A stretch of DNA of 64,000 bases. Source: Rasiella rasia. GTDB lineage: Bacteria > Bacteroidota > Bacteroidia > Flavobacteriales > Flavobacteriaceae. Shown piece after piece: positions 1 to 25,767 of this stretch. The stretch is from positions 124,001 to 188,000 of the forward strand of contig NZ_CP049057.1 in NCBI RefSeq assembly GCF_011044175.1, given 5' to 3'. Numbering within the stretch: the first letter of the stretch is position 1; each line of letters opens with the position of its first letter. A program made the translations under genes and the position numbers. Under the pieces are notes generated by a model. That model made no database searches, was not told where the DNA came from, and saw nothing but the letters and a program-made list of their open reading frames with translations.

Positions 1-96
1 CTTCAAAAGTGAAAATAATTACCTGTTTAGCATAAACTACTTCACCCAACTGTCATAAATACGACTTGAATTGTAATAATTAATCTTTCAGCTAGC

Positions 97-16099: not shown

Positions 16100-17497
16100 T
16101 TATTTCTTTATCATTTTCTTTACTGAGGTACCTGTATCTGTTTTTATTTTAAGCAGATATACTCCGCTAGCGAGGTTTGTTACATCTATGGCATGAAACC
16201 CCTTTGCTACTGTTTTTACTAATACACCAAACATTTGATAGAAACCAACTTCTTTTATAGGCTCGTCACTGCTTACAGCTACTAGGGTGCCTGCGGGATT
16301 TGGAGTAATTTTTACGTGGTTAACGGAAAATCCTTGGGTACCTAAAATGGTGGTGTTCTCGTACCAATACTGGTTTCTAAGGTCTGTATCGGGAAATAGA
16401 CAATTGTTTAGCAAATCGATATCACCATCGCTATCCATATCTACCGGAACATTGTAGGCAGTAGTGCCACCTACGGGAGGGTCTATAAATTCTGGTGCAG
16501 CAAAGGTACCTGTACCATCTGTGTTTATATGATATACCTTGCCATACTCAAAGCCTGAGTCGTAGGTGATGTCTATATCACCATCGTTATCTAAATCTAC
16601 CAAATGAATACTCACAAAGCCACCTATTCCAGGTGGTGTTATGGTGTCTGTAAACAACACATTTGGAGTGCCAAAGGTACCTAGCCCATCTGTGTTTTCT
16701 CTCCAAATAACAGATTTGTCTTTGCTAGAAACTAAGTCTAAATCGTTATCACCATCTAAATCTGCGATCTGAAAAAAATTTTCATATAAACCACTGGTCT
16801 CTATACCATGTTGTACAGAAAAATTGCCCAAACCATCGGTGTTTTCAAACCACGACATACGCTCGGTGCCTAAACCATTGGTTACTATATCCAGATCACC
16901 ATCGCCATCTATATCGCCCAAGCGTTGGGTTCTTGCCTGCGATATACCTGCATCTATCGTTTGTATGGGCCCAAAGGTACCGTTACCGTCCAGATGTTCT
17001 TTCCAGTATAAACCGTTGCCATTGCTCACACCTAGTACAACATCCAGGTCGCCATCGTCGTCAATATCGCCCGTAACCACCCCGCCCGCGTCATTTAGAT
17101 TACCTGCAATAAGAAGTAAACCTGTAAACGTACCATTGCCAAGATTTTTATACCAAACAACCCTATCATCTTCAAAATAGCTTACAAGAATGTCGAGATT
17201 TCCGTCGTCATCTAAATCAACTAGACTTTGAGCAAAGGTTTGTACTCCGTTTGAATCTAAGATGTGTTCATTAGCAAAAGTGCCATTGCCGTCTATGTTT
17301 TCTATCCAAAATACGTTTTCAGTGGTAAAAAAAATAATGTCAGGGTCGCCATCTGTATCTAAATCGCCGCTCTGAACACCATACAGTATAGTATCCATGT
17401 TTTCATACACTACATTTTGTGGTCCAAATAGCTGTGCTTGTAAGCCTGTGCAAGCGCATAGGGCTACTAGTATTGTAATTATATAACTTTTAATCAT
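16100..17497 (-). CDS. FG-GAP/VCBS-repeat secreted protein with T9SS sorting domain
   Basis: A 465-residue secreted protein: signal peptide (cleavage after about residue 21, LQAQ), then about eight repeats built on the calcium-binding pattern D-x-D-x-D-x-D-[IL]-[DV] (for example DIDGDGDLDIV). These are typical of the seven-bladed FG-GAP/VCBS propeller. It ends with a T9SS sorting domain (TPNPAGTLVAV, SGVYLLKI, ending KMIKK). The likely location is the cell surface or outside, with a binding or adhesion role. It follows no gene closely and is divergent from the TonB-dependent receptor. Confidence 0.88.
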   Translation of the reverse strand: MIKSYIITILVALCACTGLQAQLFGPQNVVYENMDTILYGVQSGDLDTDGDPDIIFFTTENVFWIENIDGNGTFANEHILDSNGVQTFAQSLVDLDDDGNLDILVSYFEDDRVVWYKNLGNGTFTGLLLIAGNLNDAGGVVTGDIDDDGDLDVVLGVSNGNGLYWKEHLDGNGTFGPIQTIDAGISQARTQRLGDIDGDGDLDIVTNGLGTERMSWFENTDGLGNFSVQHGIETSGLYENFFQIADLDGDNDLDLVSSKDKSVIWRENTDGLGTFGTPNVLFTDTITPPGIGGFVSIHLVDLDNDGDIDITYDSGFEYGKVYHINTDGTGTFAAPEFIDPPVGGTTAYNVPVDMDSDGDIDLLNNCLFPDTDLRNQYWYENTTILGTQGFSVNHVKITPNPAGTLVAVSSDEPIKEVGFYQMFGVLVKTVAKGFHAIDVTNLASGVYLLKIKTDTGTSVKKMIKK

Positions 17498-17637: not shown

Positions 17638-17667
17638 ACATTTGAACCCCTAAATCTTACAATTGAG
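17638..17667 (+). promoter_or_regulatory. LytTR-type direct repeat upstream of the TonB-dependent receptor
   Basis: Two nonamers, ACATTTGAA (17638-17646) and ACAATTGAG (17659-17667), are separated by 12 nt, giving a 21-bp period. The published LytTR-domain target is a pair of [TA][AC][CA]GTTN[AG][TG] repeats with a 12-13 bp spacer. This copy is the weakest of three in the region (two mismatches in the first repeat, one in the second). It ends 63 nt before the receptor ATG. A -7-like GACTTTTG lies at 17701-17708, exactly 42 nt from the second repeat start, as in the other two copies. Confidence 0.55.
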
Positions 17668-17730
17668 TTCCTTTTTTTCGAAAAATAGTTTTACATAGAT
17701 GACTTTTGACCTGTATTTAAAATCAACCAC

Positions 17731-19905
17731 ATGAAAATTTCAATCTTGTCATCAAAATTCTATTTCGTACTATCGCTATGCTTGCTGCTTCCATTGTTAG
17801 CGTTTGCGCAAAGTGAAGTTTCAGGCACCGTAACTCAGAAAAATGGTGCACCCATTTTTGGAGCCAATGTGTATTTAGAAGGTACCTACGACGGGGCTTC
17901 TACAGATGAAAACGGTACCTTCTCTTTTACTACTTCGGAAACTGGAATACAAACGCTGGTTATTTCGTACGTAACCTACGAGCCCTTTATGATGGCGGCA
18001 GATGTAACGCAGTTAAAAGGCTTAAAACTTACCCTTCGCGAAGATGTTAACTCGCTAGACACCGTTGTAATAAGCGCAGGGAGCCTTGAGGCTAGCGACA
18101 ATAGTAAAGTATCTGTTTTAAAACCACTCGATGTAGTGACCACCGCAAGCGCTTTGGGAGACTTTGTGGGTGCTTTACAAACATTGCCAGGCACCACAAC
18201 GGTTGCCGAAGATGGCCGATTGTTTGTACGTGGGGGTGACGCCAACGAGACACAAATTTTTATTGATGGTATACGTGTTTTTTCACCCTATACACCTACA
18301 ACCAATAACATCCCAACACGCGGGCGTTACAGTCCGTTTCTGTTCGATGGTATTACCTTTTCTACAGGTGGCTACTCTGCAGAGTACGGCCAGGCATTAT
18401 CGTCTGTTTTGTTACTCAACACCATAGACGAGCCAGACCAGGAAAAAACGGAAATCGGACTCATGACAGTGGGTGCTGCCTTAGGGAACACCCAGAAATG
18501 GGAAAACCGCTCGTTAAGTGTAAATGCTACCTATATTAATCTTGCACCCTACATCGCGGCCTTTCCAGACCGAAACGACTGGCAAAAACCTTATGAGGGT
18601 ATTTCGGGAGAAACTGTTTTTAGAAATAAATTTAAAAACGGCTTGTTTAAACTATACGCTGCTTTCGATACTACAAACTTTCAGCTAACTCAAGAAGATA
18701 TAAATGTGCCAGAAGGGGTGAATTTTAAATTAAAAAATAATAATTTTTATACCAACGCAAGCTATAGAGGCGACCTAAGCGATACCTGGAAGCTAGAAAC
18801 AGGTGGAAGTTTTACCTATACGCATTCTAACATCGGCGTGTTAGGCAATGATATTAGGGATAGAGAAAATTCGTTTCATCTTAAAGCTAAGTTGCGTAAA
18901 CGCTTTAGTAATAGGGTGAAATTAAACTTTGGAGCAGAACAATTTTTAACCGATTTCAACGAAGACGTAGCTAGTGAATTTTTTAGTGGAGATTACGGTT
19001 ACAACAATAACGTGAGTGCAGCTTTTGCAGAAACCGATCTGATATTTTCAAAGAAGTTTGCAATGAAACTAGGTGTGCGTGGCGAATATAGCCAGTTGTT
19101 TGAGCAGTTCACCGTTTCTCCAAGGGCTTCGGTTGCTTATAAAACCGGGAAGAACAGTCAGCTGTCTGTAGCCTACGGCGATTTCTACCAACAGCCTTTT
19201 CAGGATGTGCTAAAATTTCAGCAAAACTTAAAAGCACAACAAACACAGCATTACATTTTAAATTATCAGTACGTTGCCAATAACCGTATTTTTAGAGCAG
19301 AGGCGTATAGAAAACAGTACAGTAATCTAGTAACTTTTAATACAGAATTTGCAGGCTTTGATAGTGTGTATACCAACAATGGCGATGGGTATGCACAGGG
19401 AATTGATTTTTTCTGGAGAGATAATGAAAGCATAAAAAATGTAGATTATTGGATTAGCTATTCGTTTCTAGATACCGAACGTAAGTACAGAAATTTCCCC
19501 ACAACGGCAACGCCTTCTTTTGCCAATACGCACAACGCTTCTGTGGTGGCAAAGTACTGGGTAGACGACTGGAAGAGCCAGATAGGATTTAGTTACCAAT
19601 ACGGCAGTGGGCGCACATACACCAACCCTAATGTTGTTGGTTTTCTACAAGAAAAAACAAAAGATTTTAATAGTGTGAGTTTAAATTGGGCGTATTTACT
19701 TAGCCAGCAGAAAATTTTATACTTCTCAGTGAACAACGTCTTTGGATTTAATAACGTGAACGGCTATCAATATTCGAGTACGGCAGATTTCAACGGAAAT
19801 TTTAGCAGACGGGAATTGCGTCCAGCAGCAGACCAATTTTTCTTCGTAGGGTTTTTCTGGACCATAAGTGACGACGGAAGCGATAACCAGTTAGATAATT
19901 TGTAA
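17731..19905 (+). CDS. TonB-dependent outer-membrane receptor
   Basis: A 724-residue receptor: signal peptide (cleavage after AFAQ, about residue 27), a carboxypeptidase-regulatory-like beta-sandwich (about 28-110), a plug domain (about 115-225, with LFVRGGDANETQIFIDGIRV), and a beta-barrel ending in an aromatic residue-rich strand (FFFVGFFWTI). The final residues DDGSDNQLDNL extend past it. It is short for a SusC-like protein and has no SusD partner nearby, so it is more likely a siderophore, metal or small-ligand receptor. It is the first gene of the 2TM/LytTR block, preceded by a LytTR-like site. Confidence 0.92.
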   Translation: MKISILSSKFYFVLSLCLLLPLLAFAQSEVSGTVTQKNGAPIFGANVYLEGTYDGASTDENGTFSFTTSETGIQTLVISYVTYEPFMMAADVTQLKGLKLTLREDVNSLDTVVISAGSLEASDNSKVSVLKPLDVVTTASALGDFVGALQTLPGTTTVAEDGRLFVRGGDANETQIFIDGIRVFSPYTPTTNNIPTRGRYSPFLFDGITFSTGGYSAEYGQALSSVLLLNTIDEPDQEKTEIGLMTVGAALGNTQKWENRSLSVNATYINLAPYIAAFPDRNDWQKPYEGISGETVFRNKFKNGLFKLYAAFDTTNFQLTQEDINVPEGVNFKLKNNNFYTNASYRGDLSDTWKLETGGSFTYTHSNIGVLGNDIRDRENSFHLKAKLRKRFSNRVKLNFGAEQFLTDFNEDVASEFFSGDYGYNNNVSAAFAETDLIFSKKFAMKLGVRGEYSQLFEQFTVSPRASVAYKTGKNSQLSVAYGDFYQQPFQDVLKFQQNLKAQQTQHYILNYQYVANNRIFRAEAYRKQYSNLVTFNTEFAGFDSVYTNNGDGYAQGIDFFWRDNESIKNVDYWISYSFLDTERKYRNFPTTATPSFANTHNASVVAKYWVDDWKSQIGFSYQYGSGRTYTNPNVVGFLQEKTKDFNSVSLNWAYLLSQQKILYFSVNNVFGFNNVNGYQYSSTADFNGNFSRRELRPAADQFFFVGFFWTISDDGSDNQLDNL

Positions 19906-19917
19906 TAAGCTTTGGTT

Positions 19918-19947
19918 ACAGTTCAGTCGCCAAAAATGACAATTCGG
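19918..19947 (+). promoter_or_regulatory. LytTR-type direct repeat upstream of the DUF2141 gene
   Basis: ACAGTTCAG (19918-19926) matches the LytTR nonamer consensus completely, and ACAATTCGG (19939-19947) differs at one position; the spacer is 12 nt. The site starts 13 nt after the receptor stop codon and ends 64 nt before the DUF2141 ATG. It is followed by GGTAGTTCGGTTTTT (19946-19960), which is repeated almost exactly after the site at 22397. A weak -7-like GACATTTA sits at 19981-19988, 42 nt from the second repeat start. Confidence 0.7.
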
Positions 19948-20011
19948 TAGTTCGGTTTTTCAAAAACTAAATTTTCCGAAGACATTTACCGAAACTTTAA
20001 AATCACACCTC

Positions 20012-20425
20012 ATGAACGCACTAATAAATTATTTTGCTTTACTACTCACAGGAGTAATGTTGCAAGCACAAAACACGGTAGAAGTAACCATGACTAACTT
20101 TAGCAGCAACGAAGGCACTGTAAAAGTAGGCTTATATGACAGCCAAGGAACATGGTTAGAAAAAGAATACAAATCTGCAGATAGCACCATCGCTAATGAA
20201 ACTGCAAAAGTTACTTTTATTGATGTGCCCGATGGAGTTTATGCCGTATCTTGCTTTCACGATGAAGATGATGATGGTGTTTTTGACATGTATTTAGGAT
20301 TTATGCCTAAAGAAGATTACGGATGCAGTAATGGCGCTACTGGTATGTTTGGCCCGCCAAAATGGGAAGATGCCAAGTTTACACTGAAAAAAAACGAGAC
20401 AAAACTAGTATCAATAAAATTATAG
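20012..20425 (+). CDS. DUF2141 domain-containing secreted protein
   Basis: A 137-residue secreted protein with a signal peptide (cleavage after LQAQ, about residue 20) and a DUF2141 beta-sandwich: repeated V-x-V strands, the YAVSCFHDEDDDGVFDM segment rich in acidic residues, and the closing KWEDAKFTL strand. The DEDDDG stretch could bind calcium. Function is unknown; DUF2141 proteins frequently lie beside TonB-dependent receptors in Bacteroidota. The next gene begins 4 nt downstream. Confidence 0.88.
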   Translation: MNALINYFALLLTGVMLQAQNTVEVTMTNFSSNEGTVKVGLYDSQGTWLEKEYKSADSTIANETAKVTFIDVPDGVYAVSCFHDEDDDGVFDMYLGFMPKEDYGCSNGATGMFGPPKWEDAKFTLKKNETKLVSIKL

Positions 20426-20429
20426 AATC

Positions 20430-21056
20430 ATGAAGTACATACTTACACTTGTTATTGCTTTTGTGGCTTTAGGAGCCACTGCACAAACCAAATACGAAAC
20501 AGGAATGCGTAAGGCGTTTGAGTTATGGAAAGCAGATAAAAGCGATGAAGCTGCAAACCTCTTTGAGCGTATTGCTCAAGCAGAGACCGATAATTGGTTA
20601 CCTCCATTTTATGTGTCGCAGATTAATGTGTTTCAGAGTTTTTCTGAAAAGGATAAGGAGCAGCTAATCCCGCGATTAAAAAAAGCACAAGATTTCTTGA
20701 ACGATGCCAAGGCGATCTCTAAAAACAATCCTGAAATAATGGTGTTAGAAGCACAGTTACTCACTGCATGGGTTGTATTTGACGGCCAAAAATACGGTAT
20801 GAAATACAGCGGTAAAATCATGGAATTGTACAATAAGGCCGCTGAGATAGCACCTGAGAATCCGCGTGTTGCCTTAGGGAAAGCAGAGTGGGAGATAGGT
20901 GGTGCTAAATGGTTTGGTCAACCTACAGAACCCTACTGCAAAGATCTGAAACGTGCCGCCACGCTTTTTGCTAACTTTACACCAGAAGGAGAATTTTATC
21001 CGCAAGGCGGTGAGAGTAGAGTAGCACAGGTATTGAAAGAAAATAATTGTGAATAA
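20430..21056 (+). CDS. Exported TPR-like helical repeat protein
   Basis: A 208-residue protein with a signal peptide (cleavage after GATAQ, about residue 19) and helical repeats that read as degenerate TPRs (FELWKADKSDEAANLFERIA; YNKAAEIAPENPRVALGKAE). A PQGGESRVAQVLKENNC tail closes the protein. It is probably periplasmic. It is placed 4 nt after DUF2141 and 3 nt before the histidine kinase, so it is in the same operon and may be a sensory or scaffold component; that role is inference. Confidence 0.8.
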   Translation: MKYILTLVIAFVALGATAQTKYETGMRKAFELWKADKSDEAANLFERIAQAETDNWLPPFYVSQINVFQSFSEKDKEQLIPRLKKAQDFLNDAKAISKNNPEIMVLEAQLLTAWVVFDGQKYGMKYSGKIMELYNKAAEIAPENPRVALGKAEWEIGGAKWFGQPTEPYCKDLKRAATLFANFTPEGEFYPQGGESRVAQVLKENNCE

Positions 21057-21059
21057 TAC

Positions 21060-22391
21060 ATGGTTCATTTTATAAAAGAATTAGCAAAAGCATTTTTTGT
21101 AGGTACACTTATTTTTTTGGTGATATCTATCATCGAGTATTTTACGGGCAGCTTAAAATTTACAACAGAGAGTTTATTGAGAGATTTTGGCTATAACCAG
21201 CTGTACGCTGTGCCTTTGTATATGGCCAACATGCCATTCTTTTATTACATAATTAAGAAATATGGCACTACGCTGTTTAAGCTTAGGCCTATGGTAATTG
21301 CATACGCTGGGGCATTAGGACTCACCCTTGTTGCTTTGTTCTTTATTAACATGTTTATTTTTGTTGTGCTGAAAGGTGCTTCGATTTCAAGTTTCTTAAC
21401 CAATCAAGCACCTAACCAATATATACTGGGTCTTTCTGTATCGTTGGTGGTTACCACTATTTTTTACGGTGTTTACTATTACAAGCATAAAAAAGAAACG
21501 CAGGTAACTCAGCAAAAAATTATTGCTAAAACAGCGTCGGCCCAGTTCGATGCGCTTAAAAACCAGTTAGATCCGCATTTTTTGTTTAATAGTTTAAATG
21601 TGCTAACCAGTTTAATTGAAGAAAACCCAGAAGCCGCTACACGATTTACAACCTCACTTTCTAAAGTCTATAGATACGTACTAGAGCAGAAAAATAAAGA
21701 ACTTGTTACAGTTGCCGAAGAACTTAAATTTGCCCGGCTATATATGACGCTAATTAAGATGCGCTTTGAAGACAGCATTGTTTTTACCGCCCCAGAGCAA
21801 GTAAGCAATCCAGAGGCAAAGGTGGTACCATTATCGTTACAACTGTTGTTAGAAAATGCAGTGAAACACAACATGGTAATCTCTTCAAAAAAACTACATA
21901 TTACCATCTTTGAAAAAAATGGAAATCTTGTAATAGAAAATAACTTACAGCCTAAAAAGGTGCTTCGGGAGAGTAGCGGAGTAGGGCTTCAAAATATATA
22001 CCAACGATTTGGATTATTAACGCAGCGTCCTGTATTGGTAGAGAAAAATCAGGAAATGTTTAGGGTCTCTATACCCATGCTTACCAATATATCTACGGTT
22101 ACTAAGAGTCAAGATAGTTATATTTCAGACAAACGTTTAGAACGTGCCAAGGAGTATGTAGAGAAGTTAAAAGGGTTTTATGTTCATTTTACAATTTACC
22201 TAATCTTTATTCCTGTCTTTATTTACTTAAACTTTCAGTCTAACACTAATTTTCCCTGGGCAGCTTTTCCGATAGGAGGATGGGGCTTTGGTGTTTTAGG
22301 ACATGCATCTGAAGTTTTTAACTGGAATCCGCTATTTAATAAAGACTGGGAGGAGCGTAAAATTAGGGACTTAATGAATAAGGAAGACTAA
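21060..22391 (+). CDS. LytS-type sensor histidine kinase with C-terminal 2TM domain
   Basis: A 443-residue kinase. Four N-terminal membrane helices lie at about 12-30, 48-66, 78-103 and 121-141. The His_kinase domain follows with phospho-acceptor H173 in QLDPHFLFNSLN, then a HATPase region (LLLENAVKHN; SSGVGLQNIYQRFG). Residues from about 358 to the end form an extra 2TM domain (LERAKEYVEKLKGFYVHF through WEERKIRDLM) placed after the catalytic core. The kinase therefore has membrane segments at both ends. Its natural partner is the LytTR regulator at 25012, with the 2TM genes in between. Confidence 0.92.
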   Translation: MVHFIKELAKAFFVGTLIFLVISIIEYFTGSLKFTTESLLRDFGYNQLYAVPLYMANMPFFYYIIKKYGTTLFKLRPMVIAYAGALGLTLVALFFINMFIFVVLKGASISSFLTNQAPNQYILGLSVSLVVTTIFYGVYYYKHKKETQVTQQKIIAKTASAQFDALKNQLDPHFLFNSLNVLTSLIEENPEAATRFTTSLSKVYRYVLEQKNKELVTVAEELKFARLYMTLIKMRFEDSIVFTAPEQVSNPEAKVVPLSLQLLLENAVKHNMVISSKKLHITIFEKNGNLVIENNLQPKKVLRESSGVGLQNIYQRFGLLTQRPVLVEKNQEMFRVSIPMLTNISTVTKSQDSYISDKRLERAKEYVEKLKGFYVHFTIYLIFIPVFIYLNFQSNTNFPWAAFPIGGWGFGVLGHASEVFNWNPLFNKDWEERKIRDLMNKED

Positions 22392-22396
22392 AAAAT

Positions 22397-22426
22397 ACAA
22401 TTCAGACTGTAAAATTTACAGTTGGG
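22397..22426 (+). promoter_or_regulatory. LytTR-type direct repeat upstream of the 2TM gene array
   Basis: ACAATTCAG (22397-22405, one mismatch) and ACAGTTGGG (22418-22426, full match to the LytTR nonamer consensus) are 12 nt apart. The pair starts 5 nt after the kinase stop codon and ends 64 nt before the first 2TM ATG, the same distance as at the DUF2141 site. GGTAGTTCTGTTTTT (22425-22439) copies the element after that site with one change. A -7-like TACTTTAG is at 22460-22467. The pair also overlaps a perfect 8-bp inverted repeat, ACTGTAAA-A-TTTACAGT (22406-22422). Confidence 0.7.
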
Positions 22427-22490: not shown

Positions 22491-22790
22491 ATGGAAACGC
22501 TAAACAACAACAGAGAATTTAGACTACAACAAGCTAAGGAAAAAGTAGAAAAGCTTAAAGGATTTTATACGCACTTCACCATCTATTTAATCTTTGTTCC
22601 CATATTCATAAGCATTAATTATTTTGGTGGGAGTAATTTTCCGTGGGCAGTATTTCCAATTATAGGATGGGGTTTCGGAGTTTTTGGACATGCCTCTGAA
22701 ACATTTGGATGGAATCCTTTTTTTGGCAAGAATTGGGAAGAACGCAAAATGAAAGAATTTATGGATTCTGATACGTCAATCAATTTATAG
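22491..22790 (+). CDS. 2TM domain protein (first of four)
   Basis: A 99-residue protein made almost entirely of one 2TM domain: an amphipathic helix (KEKVEKLKGFYTHF, about 14-30), helix 1 (about 29-45), a short loop containing NFPW, helix 2 (about 51-68, with PIIGWGFGVFGHA), and the closing NWEERKMKEFM. It is about 69% identical (56 of 81 by hand alignment) to the C-terminal 2TM domain of the kinase just upstream. The function of 2TM domains is not known. A run of A (AAAAAAAAATT) precedes the ATG. Confidence 0.9.
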   Translation: METLNNNREFRLQQAKEKVEKLKGFYTHFTIYLIFVPIFISINYFGGSNFPWAVFPIIGWGFGVFGHASETFGWNPFFGKNWEERKMKEFMDSDTSINL

Positions 22791-22835: not shown

Positions 22836-23138
22836 ATGAACAATAATACAGAAAAACAGAACAAATACATTCGCGCTAAGGCACGAGTGGCAGAGATAAA
22901 GAAGTTTTACACAAGTTTGATATCGTACGCAATATTTATAACCCTACTGGGTGCGTTAAATTACTATGTGAACGAATGGCGCTATATGTGGTTTTTATGG
23001 GCTGCTTTTGGTTGGGGAATAGGCTTACTTTTTCAAGCAGGAAAAGCGTTTCAGTGGAGTCCTTTTATGGGTAAAAATTGGGAAGAACGTAAACTAAAAG
23101 AGTTTCTAGAAGAGGAAGAAAAACAAGATTGGAATTAA
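22836..23138 (+). CDS. 2TM domain protein (second of four)
   Basis: A 100-residue 2TM protein with the same order of elements: amphipathic helix with AEIKKFYTSL, helix 1, a WRYMWFLW loop, helix 2 with FGWGIGLLFQAG, then KNWEERKLKEFL. It is more diverged from the kinase domain: the conserved GHA triplet reads FQA here. The start is set at the ATG (MNNNTEKQNK); a TTG at 22803 is open in frame but adds residues without family similarity. It follows the first 2TM gene by 45 nt. Confidence 0.88.
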   Translation: MNNNTEKQNKYIRAKARVAEIKKFYTSLISYAIFITLLGALNYYVNEWRYMWFLWAAFGWGIGLLFQAGKAFQWSPFMGKNWEERKLKEFLEEEEKQDWN

Positions 23139-23148
23139 AGAAATTAGT

Positions 23149-23481
23149 ATGAAATCACCAGAAAACACACCCTACGAACGCGCCTTGAAAAGAGTAGAAA
23201 ACATAAAGAAATTTTATGCGCATTTACGAGCTTACCTCATTATTAATATAGCATTACTACTTATTAAAGCCAATGTGTTTGATCTTTTTAAAGGAAACGG
23301 ATTTGAAGATTTACACTTCGAGAGATGGTTAGATTTAAATGTATATGGTACCGCAATTTTATGGGGTATTGGGCTCCTAATACATGGATTGTATGCTTTT
23401 CAGTATAAATTCAAATTCTTTAAGAAATGGGAGGAGAATAAAATGAAAGAATTCATGGACAACGAAGATAAAAAATACTAA
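23149..23481 (+). CDS. 2TM domain protein (third of four)
   Basis: A 110-residue 2TM protein: RVENIKKFYAHLRAYLI opens helix 1, there is a longer inter-helix loop (about 55-75, with KGNGFEDLHFERW), then helix 2 with ILWGIGLLIHGLYAF and the closing KKWEENKMKEFMDNED. The closing motif is changed to WEENK instead of WEERK. It starts 10 nt after the second copy and is followed 5 nt later by the fourth, so the array is one transcript. Confidence 0.88.
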   Translation: MKSPENTPYERALKRVENIKKFYAHLRAYLIINIALLLIKANVFDLFKGNGFEDLHFERWLDLNVYGTAILWGIGLLIHGLYAFQYKFKFFKKWEENKMKEFMDNEDKKY

Positions 23482-23486
23482 GTAGC

Positions 23487-23813
23487 ATGATGAATACGTC
23501 AGACAAAGAAAAATTTGAGCGCGCTAAAAAGCAAGTAGCAGAAATAAAAGGATTTTATGTGCACTTAAGCATATATTTATTTGTAAATCTAATACTACTT
23601 CTTATAGCGTTTGGCCTATTTAGCGATGGATTCTTTTCTATGCATATGCCGCACTGGGGACACTTTACAACACCTTTTTTCTGGGGTATCGGACTATTCT
23701 TTCACGGTCTAAAAGTCTTTGGACATAAGATGAAATTTCTTAAAAACTGGGAAGACCGTAAAATTAAAGAGTATATAGATCGCGAAGAACGTGATTTCGA
23801 AAAATTTAATTAA
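23487..23813 (+). CDS. 2TM domain protein (fourth of four)
   Basis: A 108-residue 2TM protein: KQVAEIKGFYVHLSIYL leads into helix 1, the loop is His-rich (MHMPHWGHF, about 52-60), helix 2 holds FFWGIGLFFHGLKVFGH, and the closing motif is NWEDRKIKEYI. It is closest in layout to the third copy (long loop, IHG/FHG in helix 2). The His-rich loop is not present in the others. Its stop overlaps a possible upstream ATG of the amidohydrolase gene by one base. Confidence 0.88.
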   Translation: MMNTSDKEKFERAKKQVAEIKGFYVHLSIYLFVNLILLLIAFGLFSDGFFSMHMPHWGHFTTPFFWGIGLFFHGLKVFGHKMKFLKNWEDRKIKEYIDREERDFEKFN

Positions 23814-23830
23814 TGCTGAAATTTTCAACT

Positions 23831-24958
23831 ATGAAAACACTTTTAAAACTATTACTCTTGCTATGTGTTTCGGTGGTATCTGCACAAAAATTTGTAATCA
23901 CCAATGTAACTGTCTTCGATGGAGAAGCGGTTACCGATACTATTTCAGTTTTAGTTGAAGACGGAGTTATTACAGAAATTGCTAAAACCATTACAACAGA
24001 TGCAACGACCGTAGATGGTACTGGTAAATTTCTAATGCCCGCCCTCACAAACTGTCATGTACATGCATGGAGTAATGATGCGTTAACAGAAGCTGCACAA
24101 GCAGGGGTAACAAACGTCCTAGACATGCATGGTGTTGAAATGGCGCAAGGCATGATGAAGTCGTTAAAAGATTCTACTAACTACGCTCGCTGTTTTGTTG
24201 CCGGAGCAGCGGCTACAGCGCCTGGCGGACATGGAACTCAATACGGTTTTCCTACACCTACCTTAATCAAACCTGAAGAAGCAGAAGGCTTTATTAGTGA
24301 TCGCATAGCAGCGGGGGCAGATTACATAAAAATTATTGTTGAACCCTGGAAGGAAACCTTAAGTCATGAAACGGTAGGCGCGCTCATAGCAGCTGCACAT
24401 GCTAAAGACAAAAGAGCTGTTGTGCATATTTCTAAAGCTGAAGATGCAAAAAAAGTACTTGAAAATGGTGCTGATGGCTTGGTGCATGTATGGTGGGATA
24501 CGTTAATTTCTACAGAACAACTAAAAACATGGTCTAGAAACAAAGATTGCTTTATTATGCCAACACTCTTAACAAGTCAGCTGGTATTGCCTATGATAAG
24601 GAAATCTGCTCCAGAAGGAAAACTGTTATCTGATGAGCAATTAGAACAGCAAGTAAAGATGATCTATGACGCTGGTATCGATATTTTAGCTGGTACAGAC
24701 CCCCCGAACGCAGGTATTAATTATGGAACTGATTTATACAAAGAACTTAAATTACTCTCTAAAGCAGGAGTTCCAAACTTGGTTGTTTTAAAATCTGCAA
24801 CATCCTTACCCGCTAAATATTTTCCCTTAGGTAAAACAGGGAGCATAAAAGAGGGTTATAAAGCAGACATGCTCTTATTAAATGCCAGCCCTATTCAAGA
24901 TATTGACAATATAAGTAACATAGCTGTTGTATGGAAAGATGGAAAAAAGGTTCGTTAA
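23831..24958 (+). CDS. Exported metal-dependent amidohydrolase
   Basis: About 375 residues from the ATG at 23831, which begins a signal peptide (LLLLLCVSVVSAQ). The amidohydrolase fold shows CHVH (first metal pair), VVHIS and GLVHVWW (later metal His), and the AGTDPP aspartate strand; the C-terminal KTGSIKEGYKADMLLL motif is typical of the composite domain. Substrate is unknown; imidazolonepropionase- and prolidase-like relatives act on cyclic amides or dipeptides. An in-frame ATG at 23813 would overlap the last 2TM stop codon. It is an unexpected enzyme inside a two-component operon. Confidence 0.88.
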   Translation: MKTLLKLLLLLCVSVVSAQKFVITNVTVFDGEAVTDTISVLVEDGVITEIAKTITTDATTVDGTGKFLMPALTNCHVHAWSNDALTEAAQAGVTNVLDMHGVEMAQGMMKSLKDSTNYARCFVAGAAATAPGGHGTQYGFPTPTLIKPEEAEGFISDRIAAGADYIKIIVEPWKETLSHETVGALIAAAHAKDKRAVVHISKAEDAKKVLENGADGLVHVWWDTLISTEQLKTWSRNKDCFIMPTLLTSQLVLPMIRKSAPEGKLLSDEQLEQQVKMIYDAGIDILAGTDPPNAGINYGTDLYKELKLLSKAGVPNLVVLKSATSLPAKYFPLGKTGSIKEGYKADMLLLNASPIQDIDNISNIAVVWKDGKKVR

Positions 24959-25011: not shown

Positions 25012-25767
25012 ATGAACGTTCTCATTATTGAAGATGAAAAACCAGCTGCAAGACGCCTTCAGCGTATGTTGGAACGCATAGACGTAAAAGTAGCAACTTT
25101 GCTCCATAGCGTAGAAGAAGCAATTAATTGGTTTTCTAACAATACACATCCCGACCTTATTTTTTTAGACATACAACTTAGCGACGGATTGTCTTTTGAA
25201 ATTTTTGATGAGGTAGACGTAAGGAGTGCTATTATTTTTACAACTGCTTTCGATGAATATGCCTTACAAGCTTTTAAACTCAATAGCATAGATTATATCT
25301 TAAAACCCATAGATGAAGATGATCTAAAGACAGCTGTAACTAAATACCAGTCGTTACAGCCAAAGGCAGCAAACCTCCAGCTTAATTTTGAAGACATCAA
25401 AAAATTACTTGTCAACCCAGTAGAGCGAGAATACAAAAAACGGTTTACCACCAAAATAGGGCAGCATATAAAGATGATTTCGGTAGATGAAATTGAGTGT
25501 TTTTATTCTGAAAATAAAGGCACCTACGCCCACACCGTAGAAGGGAGAGATTATCTGCTAGATACAACCTTAGAACAGTTAGAAAACGAACTAGAACCCC
25601 AGACGTTTTTCAGAATTAGTAGAAAATATTACATCAATATTAATGCTATAAAAGATATAATTAGCTATACCAATAGTAGGTTGCAGCTTAAACTTAACAG
25701 CTATAAGGAACAAGAGGTTATTGTAGCAAGAGAACGAGTAAAAGACTTCAAACTTTGGCTTGAATAG
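25012..25767 (+). CDS. LytTR family response regulator
   Basis: A 251-residue response regulator: receiver domain (about 1-120) with phospho-acceptor D53 in LIFLDIQL and conserved early acidic residues (IIEDE), then a LytTR DNA-binding domain (about 145-251, with KMISVDEIECFYSENKGT and FFRISRKYYININAI). It should be phosphorylated by the LytS-type kinase at 21060. LytTR domains bind paired nonamers, and three such pairs occur upstream of genes in this same block. The gene is 53 nt after the amidohydrolase and ends the operon, convergent with the gene at 25772. Confidence 0.94.
   Translation: MNVLIIEDEKPAARRLQRMLERIDVKVATLLHSVEEAINWFSNNTHPDLIFLDIQLSDGLSFEIFDEVDVRSAIIFTTAFDEYALQAFKLNSIDYILKPIDEDDLKTAVTKYQSLQPKAANLQLNFEDIKKLLVNPVEREYKKRFTTKIGQHIKMISVDEIECFYSENKGTYAHTVEGRDYLLDTTLEQLENELEPQTFFRISRKYYININAIKDIISYTNSRLQLKLNSYKEQEVIVARERVKDFKLWLE

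Follow-up and report, generated by a model that had tools for sequence, protein, structure and literature searches.

What would the direct repeats bind that precede several genes of one block in the flavobacterium Rasiella rasia, and how far does the corresponding regulon extend? The window, that is, the whole 64,000-nt stretch of DNA analysed here (contig NZ_CP049057.1, positions 124,001–188,000, forward strand), contains a block encoding a TonB-dependent receptor, a DUF2141 protein, a LytS-type histidine kinase, 2TM proteins and a LytTR response regulator, with three pairs of nonamers in front of its genes. We predict, from the form of the sites and their distribution among genomes, that the repeats are LytTR-type sites very probably paired with the block's own LytTR regulator. 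A fourth pair, overlooked in the initial annotation, is situated 18 kb from the block. The sites, with their promoter boxes and matrix scores, are as follows.

17638–17667, plus strand: direct repeat pair 1, ACATTTGAA (17638–17646) and ACAATTGAG (17659–17667), 5' of the TonB-dependent receptor gene; 43.9 bits
17701–17708, plus strand: -7-like box GACTTTTG of the pair 1 promoter, 42 nt past the start of the second repeat, also seen in the ortholog column profile
19918–19947, plus strand: direct repeat pair 2, ACAGTTCAG (19918–19926) and ACAATTCGG (19939–19947), 5' of the DUF2141-TPR-kinase unit; 61.7 bits
19981–19988, plus strand: -7-like box GACATTTA of the pair 2 promoter, 42 nt past the start of the second repeat, also seen in the ortholog column profile
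22397–22426, plus strand: direct repeat pair 3, ACAATTCAG (22397–22405) and ACAGTTGGG (22418–22426), 5' of the first 2TM gene; 47.9 bits
22460–22467, plus strand: -7-like box TACTTTAG of the pair 3 promoter, one base off the pattern A..TTT
45–74, minus strand: fourth direct repeat pair, ACAATTCAA (74–66), 12 nt, ACAGTTGGG (53–45), 5' of the second DUF2141 gene; 37.5 bits
4–11, minus strand: -7-like box CACTTTTG belonging to the fourth pair, again 42 nt past the start of the second repeat
G000:C1:123530-123964, just left of the window: second DUF2141 gene, 144 aa, the predicted target of the fourth site

All four sites have a 21-bp period, a 12-nt spacer and a TAnnTTTG-like box 42 nt past the start of the second repeat. 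For the three sites of the block this bears out the initial annotation in the positions of the pairs and their spacing, in the exact +42 position of the box, in the distances from the repeat ends to the ATGs (63, 64 and 64 nt), and in the claim that each nonamer departs from the quoted LytTR consensus by zero to two mismatches.

Chance origin of the pairs is rejected: the pattern ACANTTSR-N13-ACANTTSR matches the window four times, whereas 0.01 matches are expected from dinucleotide shuffles and none of 100 shuffles reaches four. Scored with the 74-column matrix, which was trained on other genomes, the window has exactly four matches above 8 bits, and its reverse has none. ACANTT-N15-ACANTT matches the genome (3.39 Mb) 25 times, and in four of these matches S-R follows both half-sites; when the pattern includes the -7 box, the four sites rank at the top genome-wide (three without a mismatch, one with a single mismatch). 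At up to three mismatches the scan gives 105 full-promoter matches against 74 for the reversed-pattern control, which is not far above background. One further full-promoter match with a single mismatch is found at G000:C1:2008830-2008899 on the minus strand.

Conservation at orthologous loci, a point that the initial annotation left to be checked, was assessed in 80 loci, the best of 352 confirmed relatives from a search with the kinase, with Dokdonia and Leeuwenhoekiella strains among them. The repeats are conserved there, as 105 exact pairs at period 21. When periods from 12 to 37 were scanned with the exact motif, there were no pairs at 20 or 22 and at most one at any other period, and the reversed motif produced one pair at period 21. 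A flexible repeat spacing is thus rejected, as only period 21 is enriched.

In the column profile of the ortholog sites, where offsets count from 0 at the start of the first repeat and the columns outside the repeats are not imposed by the search pattern, the repeats read ACARTTCAG at offsets 0–8 and ACAGTTCGG at 21–29. A run of T at offsets 39–42 (98% T at 40) lies 9 nt from the second repeat, and a -7 box occupies offsets 63–70, with A at 64 in 96%, T at 67 in 98%, T at 68 in 98%, T at 69 in 94% and G at 70 in 72% of the sites; the strict.A..TTTG box begins at offset 63 in 72 of the 105 sites and at offset 64 in three. The columns outside the repeats show a fixed promoter. The consensus of flavobacterial sigma-A promoters has TTG at -33, and in the ortholog promoters the T run takes its place. 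The sites differ from such promoters in the T run and in the activator-type repeats upstream, and share with them the -7 box TAnnTTTG, as given in the transcription-start paper (PMC9723704), whose main text does not use the word LytTR.

Above 20 bits, the matrix used for the locus counts gives 159 matches in the 80 loci and none in the reversed sequences, with at least one match in 78 loci, although these counts are partly circular, because the 105 training sites come from the same loci. The next downstream homolog is the TonB receptor for 33 matches (a homolog is present in 36 of the 80 loci), the first DUF2141 protein for 29, the TPR protein for 29, the kinase for 25, a 2TM protein for 35, the other DUF2141 protein for six, and none for two. 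No match among the 159 was assigned to the LytTR gene as its next gene.

The candidate regulator and the other genes of the block are listed below, with Pfam matches in parentheses.

17731–19905, plus strand: TonB-dependent receptor with a CarboxypepD_reg-like domain (PF13715, PF07715)
20012–20425, plus strand: DUF2141 protein (PF09912)
20430–21056, plus strand: TPR-like protein in a close array with the kinase (TPR matches below cut-off), with gaps of 4 and 3 nt to its neighbours
21060–22391, plus strand: LytS-type histidine kinase with a C-terminal 2TM domain (PF06580 and PF13239)
22491–22790, 22836–23138, 23149–23481 and 23487–23813, plus strand: four stand-alone 2TM genes (PF13239 matches in the first three, the last one identified by its position and sequence)
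23813–24958, plus strand: amidohydrolase (PF01979), with a homolog in 8 of the 80 ortholog loci
25012–25767, plus strand: LytTR response regulator with receiver and LytTR domains (PF00072 and PF04397, above cut-off), the proposed binder of the repeats

As initially annotated, the last of these is the only LytTR regulator of the window, one of the 13 genomic LytTR matches falling there. Compared by eye with the FhRhHRS-type motif, the FFRISRK of the regulator agrees at F, R and the second R and departs at H and S. In a search for a solved structure of a close LytTR domain, made with the domain alone, the best match had E 0.028.

The assignment to this regulator relies on co-occurrence in 199 genomes of the family, an even draw from a larger group with a limited number of candidate proteins scored per genome; orthologs were called at E <= 1e-60 for the LytTR regulator and at E <= 1e-80 for the kinase. 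The full promoter pattern and the LytTR ortholog are both present in 128 genomes, the regulator alone in 23, the site alone in none, and neither in 48, while the reversed pattern gives four matches in three genomes. The kinase is found in 147 of the 151 regulator-bearing genomes and in none of the other 48. A tolerance of one mismatch brings in every one of the 23 regulator-positive genomes left over (51 matches; six in the reversed control). Beyond the family, the pattern stays close to background: six of 192 other Bacteroidia genomes match, once each, against four matches in the reversed control. Two of the extra-family matches look genuine by eye (G270:C31:42918-42987 and G334:C7:523903-523972).

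The sites might instead be targets of a different LytTR paralogue, or of several LytTR proteins in common, the block regulator being merely a neighbour. The 13 LytTR matches in the genome and the fit of the half-sites to the general LytTR consensus are compatible with this, but 35 of the 48 ortholog-negative genomes have other LytTR proteins and no exact full-promoter match occurs in them, and kinase, regulator and site share nearly one distribution. Hence this explanation is unlikely.

Several points weigh against the assignment to the block regulator. The exact full-promoter match is absent from 23 of the 151 regulator-positive genomes; a tolerance of one mismatch also yields matches in 17 of the 48 regulator-negative genomes (21 matches versus eight in the control); and 12 other LytTR domains are encoded in the R. 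rasia genome. Many regulator-negative genomes are small, 14 of the 48 being 2.5 Mb or more. Genomes without the regulator are also without the kinase, and many are probably without the whole block; since the block genes are largely present or absent together, the co-occurrence reflects linkage as well as function. Within the block, the LytTR gene could have a promoter of its own in the 53 nt that precede it.

Two further sets of observations concern the pairing of these sites with the block regulator. Ten ortholog loci were tested, and the LytTR ortholog was found in all ten genomes. Five loci are flanked by about 10 kb on each side and contain no LytTR gene (L090, L094, L099, L106 and L134), yet their genomes have the ortholog at another place; therefore, the regulator would act in trans there, and control exclusively in cis is rejected. 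These five are the informative loci, since L104, L109 and L111, which also lack LytTR, run out close to the end of a contig, and L110 and L113 contain the gene.

The second set comes from one regulator-negative genome (G006), which retains a DUF2141 gene alongside a broken, frame-changed TPR remnant (L221 and L222, on G006:C8). Neither kinase nor 2TM nor regulator genes were seen in the 52 kb read, nor a kinase or regulator genome-wide at the thresholds set. Two sites are still present, each with a single damaged base, one in front of DUF2141 (45.6 bits) and the other in front of DUF2807 (33.0 bits); a third, weaker matrix match (22.9 bits) has no -7 box. Decaying sites are what loss of the regulator predicts, and this genome, which apparently lost the pair and keeps the sites, may serve as a natural experiment.

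As for the mechanism, LytTR activators use pairs of 9-bp direct repeats, in most cases with 12 bp between them and often with 10 bp to the -35 box, and AgrA of Staphylococcus aureus and HdrR/BrsR of Streptococcus mutans have, like the genes considered here, 9-bp repeat pairs just upstream of -35 (PMC4227749 and PMC6193735). The 9 nt between the second repeat and the T run are close to the 10 nt seen in many LytTR systems described there. Because the repeats are two turns apart and lie 9 nt upstream of a defective -33 element, as in AgrA/HdrR-type systems, the layout suggests an activator.

What is directly supported is the sequence, position and conservation of the sites and their co-occurrence with this regulator; from these we infer binding, activation rather than repression, phosphorylation, co-transcription and a signal, as follows. 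The repeats would be the two half-sites of the dimeric response regulator encoded at 25012–25767. The adjacent LytS-type kinase would phosphorylate it, and the phosphorylated regulator would bind both half-sites on one helix face, two turns apart, and aid RNA polymerase at a promoter with the TAnnTTTG-type -7 box and the T run in place of the -33 TTG. The units activated would be the TonB receptor gene, DUF2141-TPR-kinase, the unit from 2TM to LytTR, and the second DUF2141 gene 18 kb away.

Repression of these promoters by the same regulator is distinctly improbable: while the sign of regulation is not readable from sequence alone, the pair is situated just upstream of -33, where TTG is missing, as at activator-dependent promoters, and AgrA and HdrR, which have the same layout, are reported to activate.

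The initial annotation had described an autoregulated, locally confined regulon. Its first half is likely, as a prediction from the sites and gene spacing. One site precedes the DUF2141-TPR-kinase unit and another the unit from 2TM to LytTR; the LytTR gene starts at most 150 nt from the preceding block gene in 53 of the 68 ortholog loci that have it, and is thus probably co-transcribed with the block. With the kinase and probably the regulator in target units, the activating circuit would feed back on itself, which may be likened to the positive feedback of HdrR on its own operon (PMC6193735, PMC4227749). Over 84 residues, the first of the stand-alone 2TM proteins shares 67% identity with the C-terminal part of the kinase, and a feedback role of the stand-alone 2TM proteins is our guess.

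The second half, local confinement, does not hold: the fourth site stands 18 kb off the block in front of a DUF2141 gene, and relatives have sites outside the block that precede genes for DUF2807, DUF2141 and TonB receptors, among others. We considered 40 sites of relatives, hand-picked from among the matches listed, the first ten for similar sequences; for this reason they show which types of target exist, not their frequency. The downstream genes form similarity groups: DUF2807 (15), DUF2141 (7), TonB receptor (4), DUF4440-like (3), serine-hydrolase-like (3, a label based on sequence impression only), and pairs and singletons (8). In a Pfam check, one DUF2807 protein matched PF10988 strongly, and one DUF4440-like protein matched PF14534 weakly, below cut-off. 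Relative to the best regulator match, 23 of the sites are on another contig, five are more than 300 kb away and 12 are about 15–75 kb away. A family of ~480-aa proteins has the same promoter in two genomes (L208:591-2036 and L218); the L208 protein has no Pfam match at E 0.001.

Although three of the four matrix matches of the window fall in the block, a regulon consisting of the block and nothing else is highly improbable, given the fourth site 18 kb away and 28 of the 40 relatives' sites on another contig or over 300 kb from the best regulator match, with the other 12 at about 15–75 kb.

A relative of the DUF2807 protein of this genome occurs in 18 of the 40 pieces, and in 16 of these a PspC relative is just upstream. 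In R. rasia itself the corresponding array consists of PadR, PspC (named from its sequence), DUF2807, a 183-aa protein and a DUF4440-like gene (L220:6335-10354, that is, G000:C1:114335-118354). In relatives, the site lies between PspC and either DUF2807 or the DUF4440-like gene, while G000:C1:108001-118500, which holds PadR-PspC-DUF2807, has no matrix match above 8 bits. Since the operon of this genome has no site, the PspC-DUF2807 target varies by species.

DUF2807 is part of Toastrack, a proposed organiser of membrane-stress signalling, and LytTR beside Toastrack was noted in Firmicutes (PMC11237479). As sites of relatives are often found between PspC and DUF2807, a role in envelope stress is suggested. 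Tentatively, and with the odds rather against it, one may go further and imagine an envelope-stress system of the whole Flavobacteriaceae, LiaRS-like and built on LytTR, which in many members drives a DUF2807 promoter right behind PspC, together with DUF2141, a dedicated TonB receptor and the 2TM set, the 2TM proteins, copies of the kinase C-terminal domain, acting as feedback mimics that damp the kinase.

Compared with known systems, the protein at 25012–25767 has the receiver and LytTR domains (PF00072, PF04397) of LytTR response regulators, and the PF06580 kinase at 21060–22391, which would interact with it, has the mark of a LytS-type two-component system. A LytTR Regulatory System (LRS) combines a LytTR regulator lacking receiver and kinase with an inhibitory membrane protein; here, receiver domain and kinase are both present. 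Unlike AgrA, HdrR and BrsR, the system features a receiver-LytTR protein, a LytS-type kinase with C-terminal 2TM, the TAnnTTTG-type promoter, and exact ortholog pairs at period 21 only. With LiaRS/PspC-Toastrack it shares a two-component pair tied, in relatives, to PspC and DUF2807. However, the regulator is LytTR rather than the receiver-HTH LiaR, and the PspC-DUF2807 operon of R. rasia has no matrix match above 8 bits, so that the control of Toastrack/PspC genes expected of a Lia/PSP system is not seen in this genome. Lia/PSP systems also have PspA together with membrane partners induced by stress; the link observed here is that to PspC-DUF2807 in relatives.

The mechanism class is known, and the system and its regulon appear to be a new member of it: no such regulon came up among the listings of the open-licence literature searched, which would miss work in subscription journals. 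The analysis gives a sharp family-wide binding motif and a promoter model for one Bacteroidetes LytTR regulator. It places the little-known 2TM, DUF2141 and DUF2807 families and the DUF4440-like protein in one predicted circuit, so that the function of 2TM and DUF2141 proteins becomes testable.

Two minor observations may be added. In Flavobacterium johnsoniae, FJOH_RS09515 (LytTR; lines 2 and 5) or FJOH_RS09520 (kinase; lines 1, 3 and 4) was mutated in all five coevolved lines (PMC10197871), and the accessible text of that paper discusses only the LytTR changes of two lines. The consecutive tags suggest that, unlike here, no 2TM genes lie between the two, which may or may not be orthologs of the pair considered here and were not used above. 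Divergent from the TonB receptor gene, on the minus strand at 16100–17497 of the window, is a gene for an FG-GAP repeat protein with a type IX secretion sorting tail.

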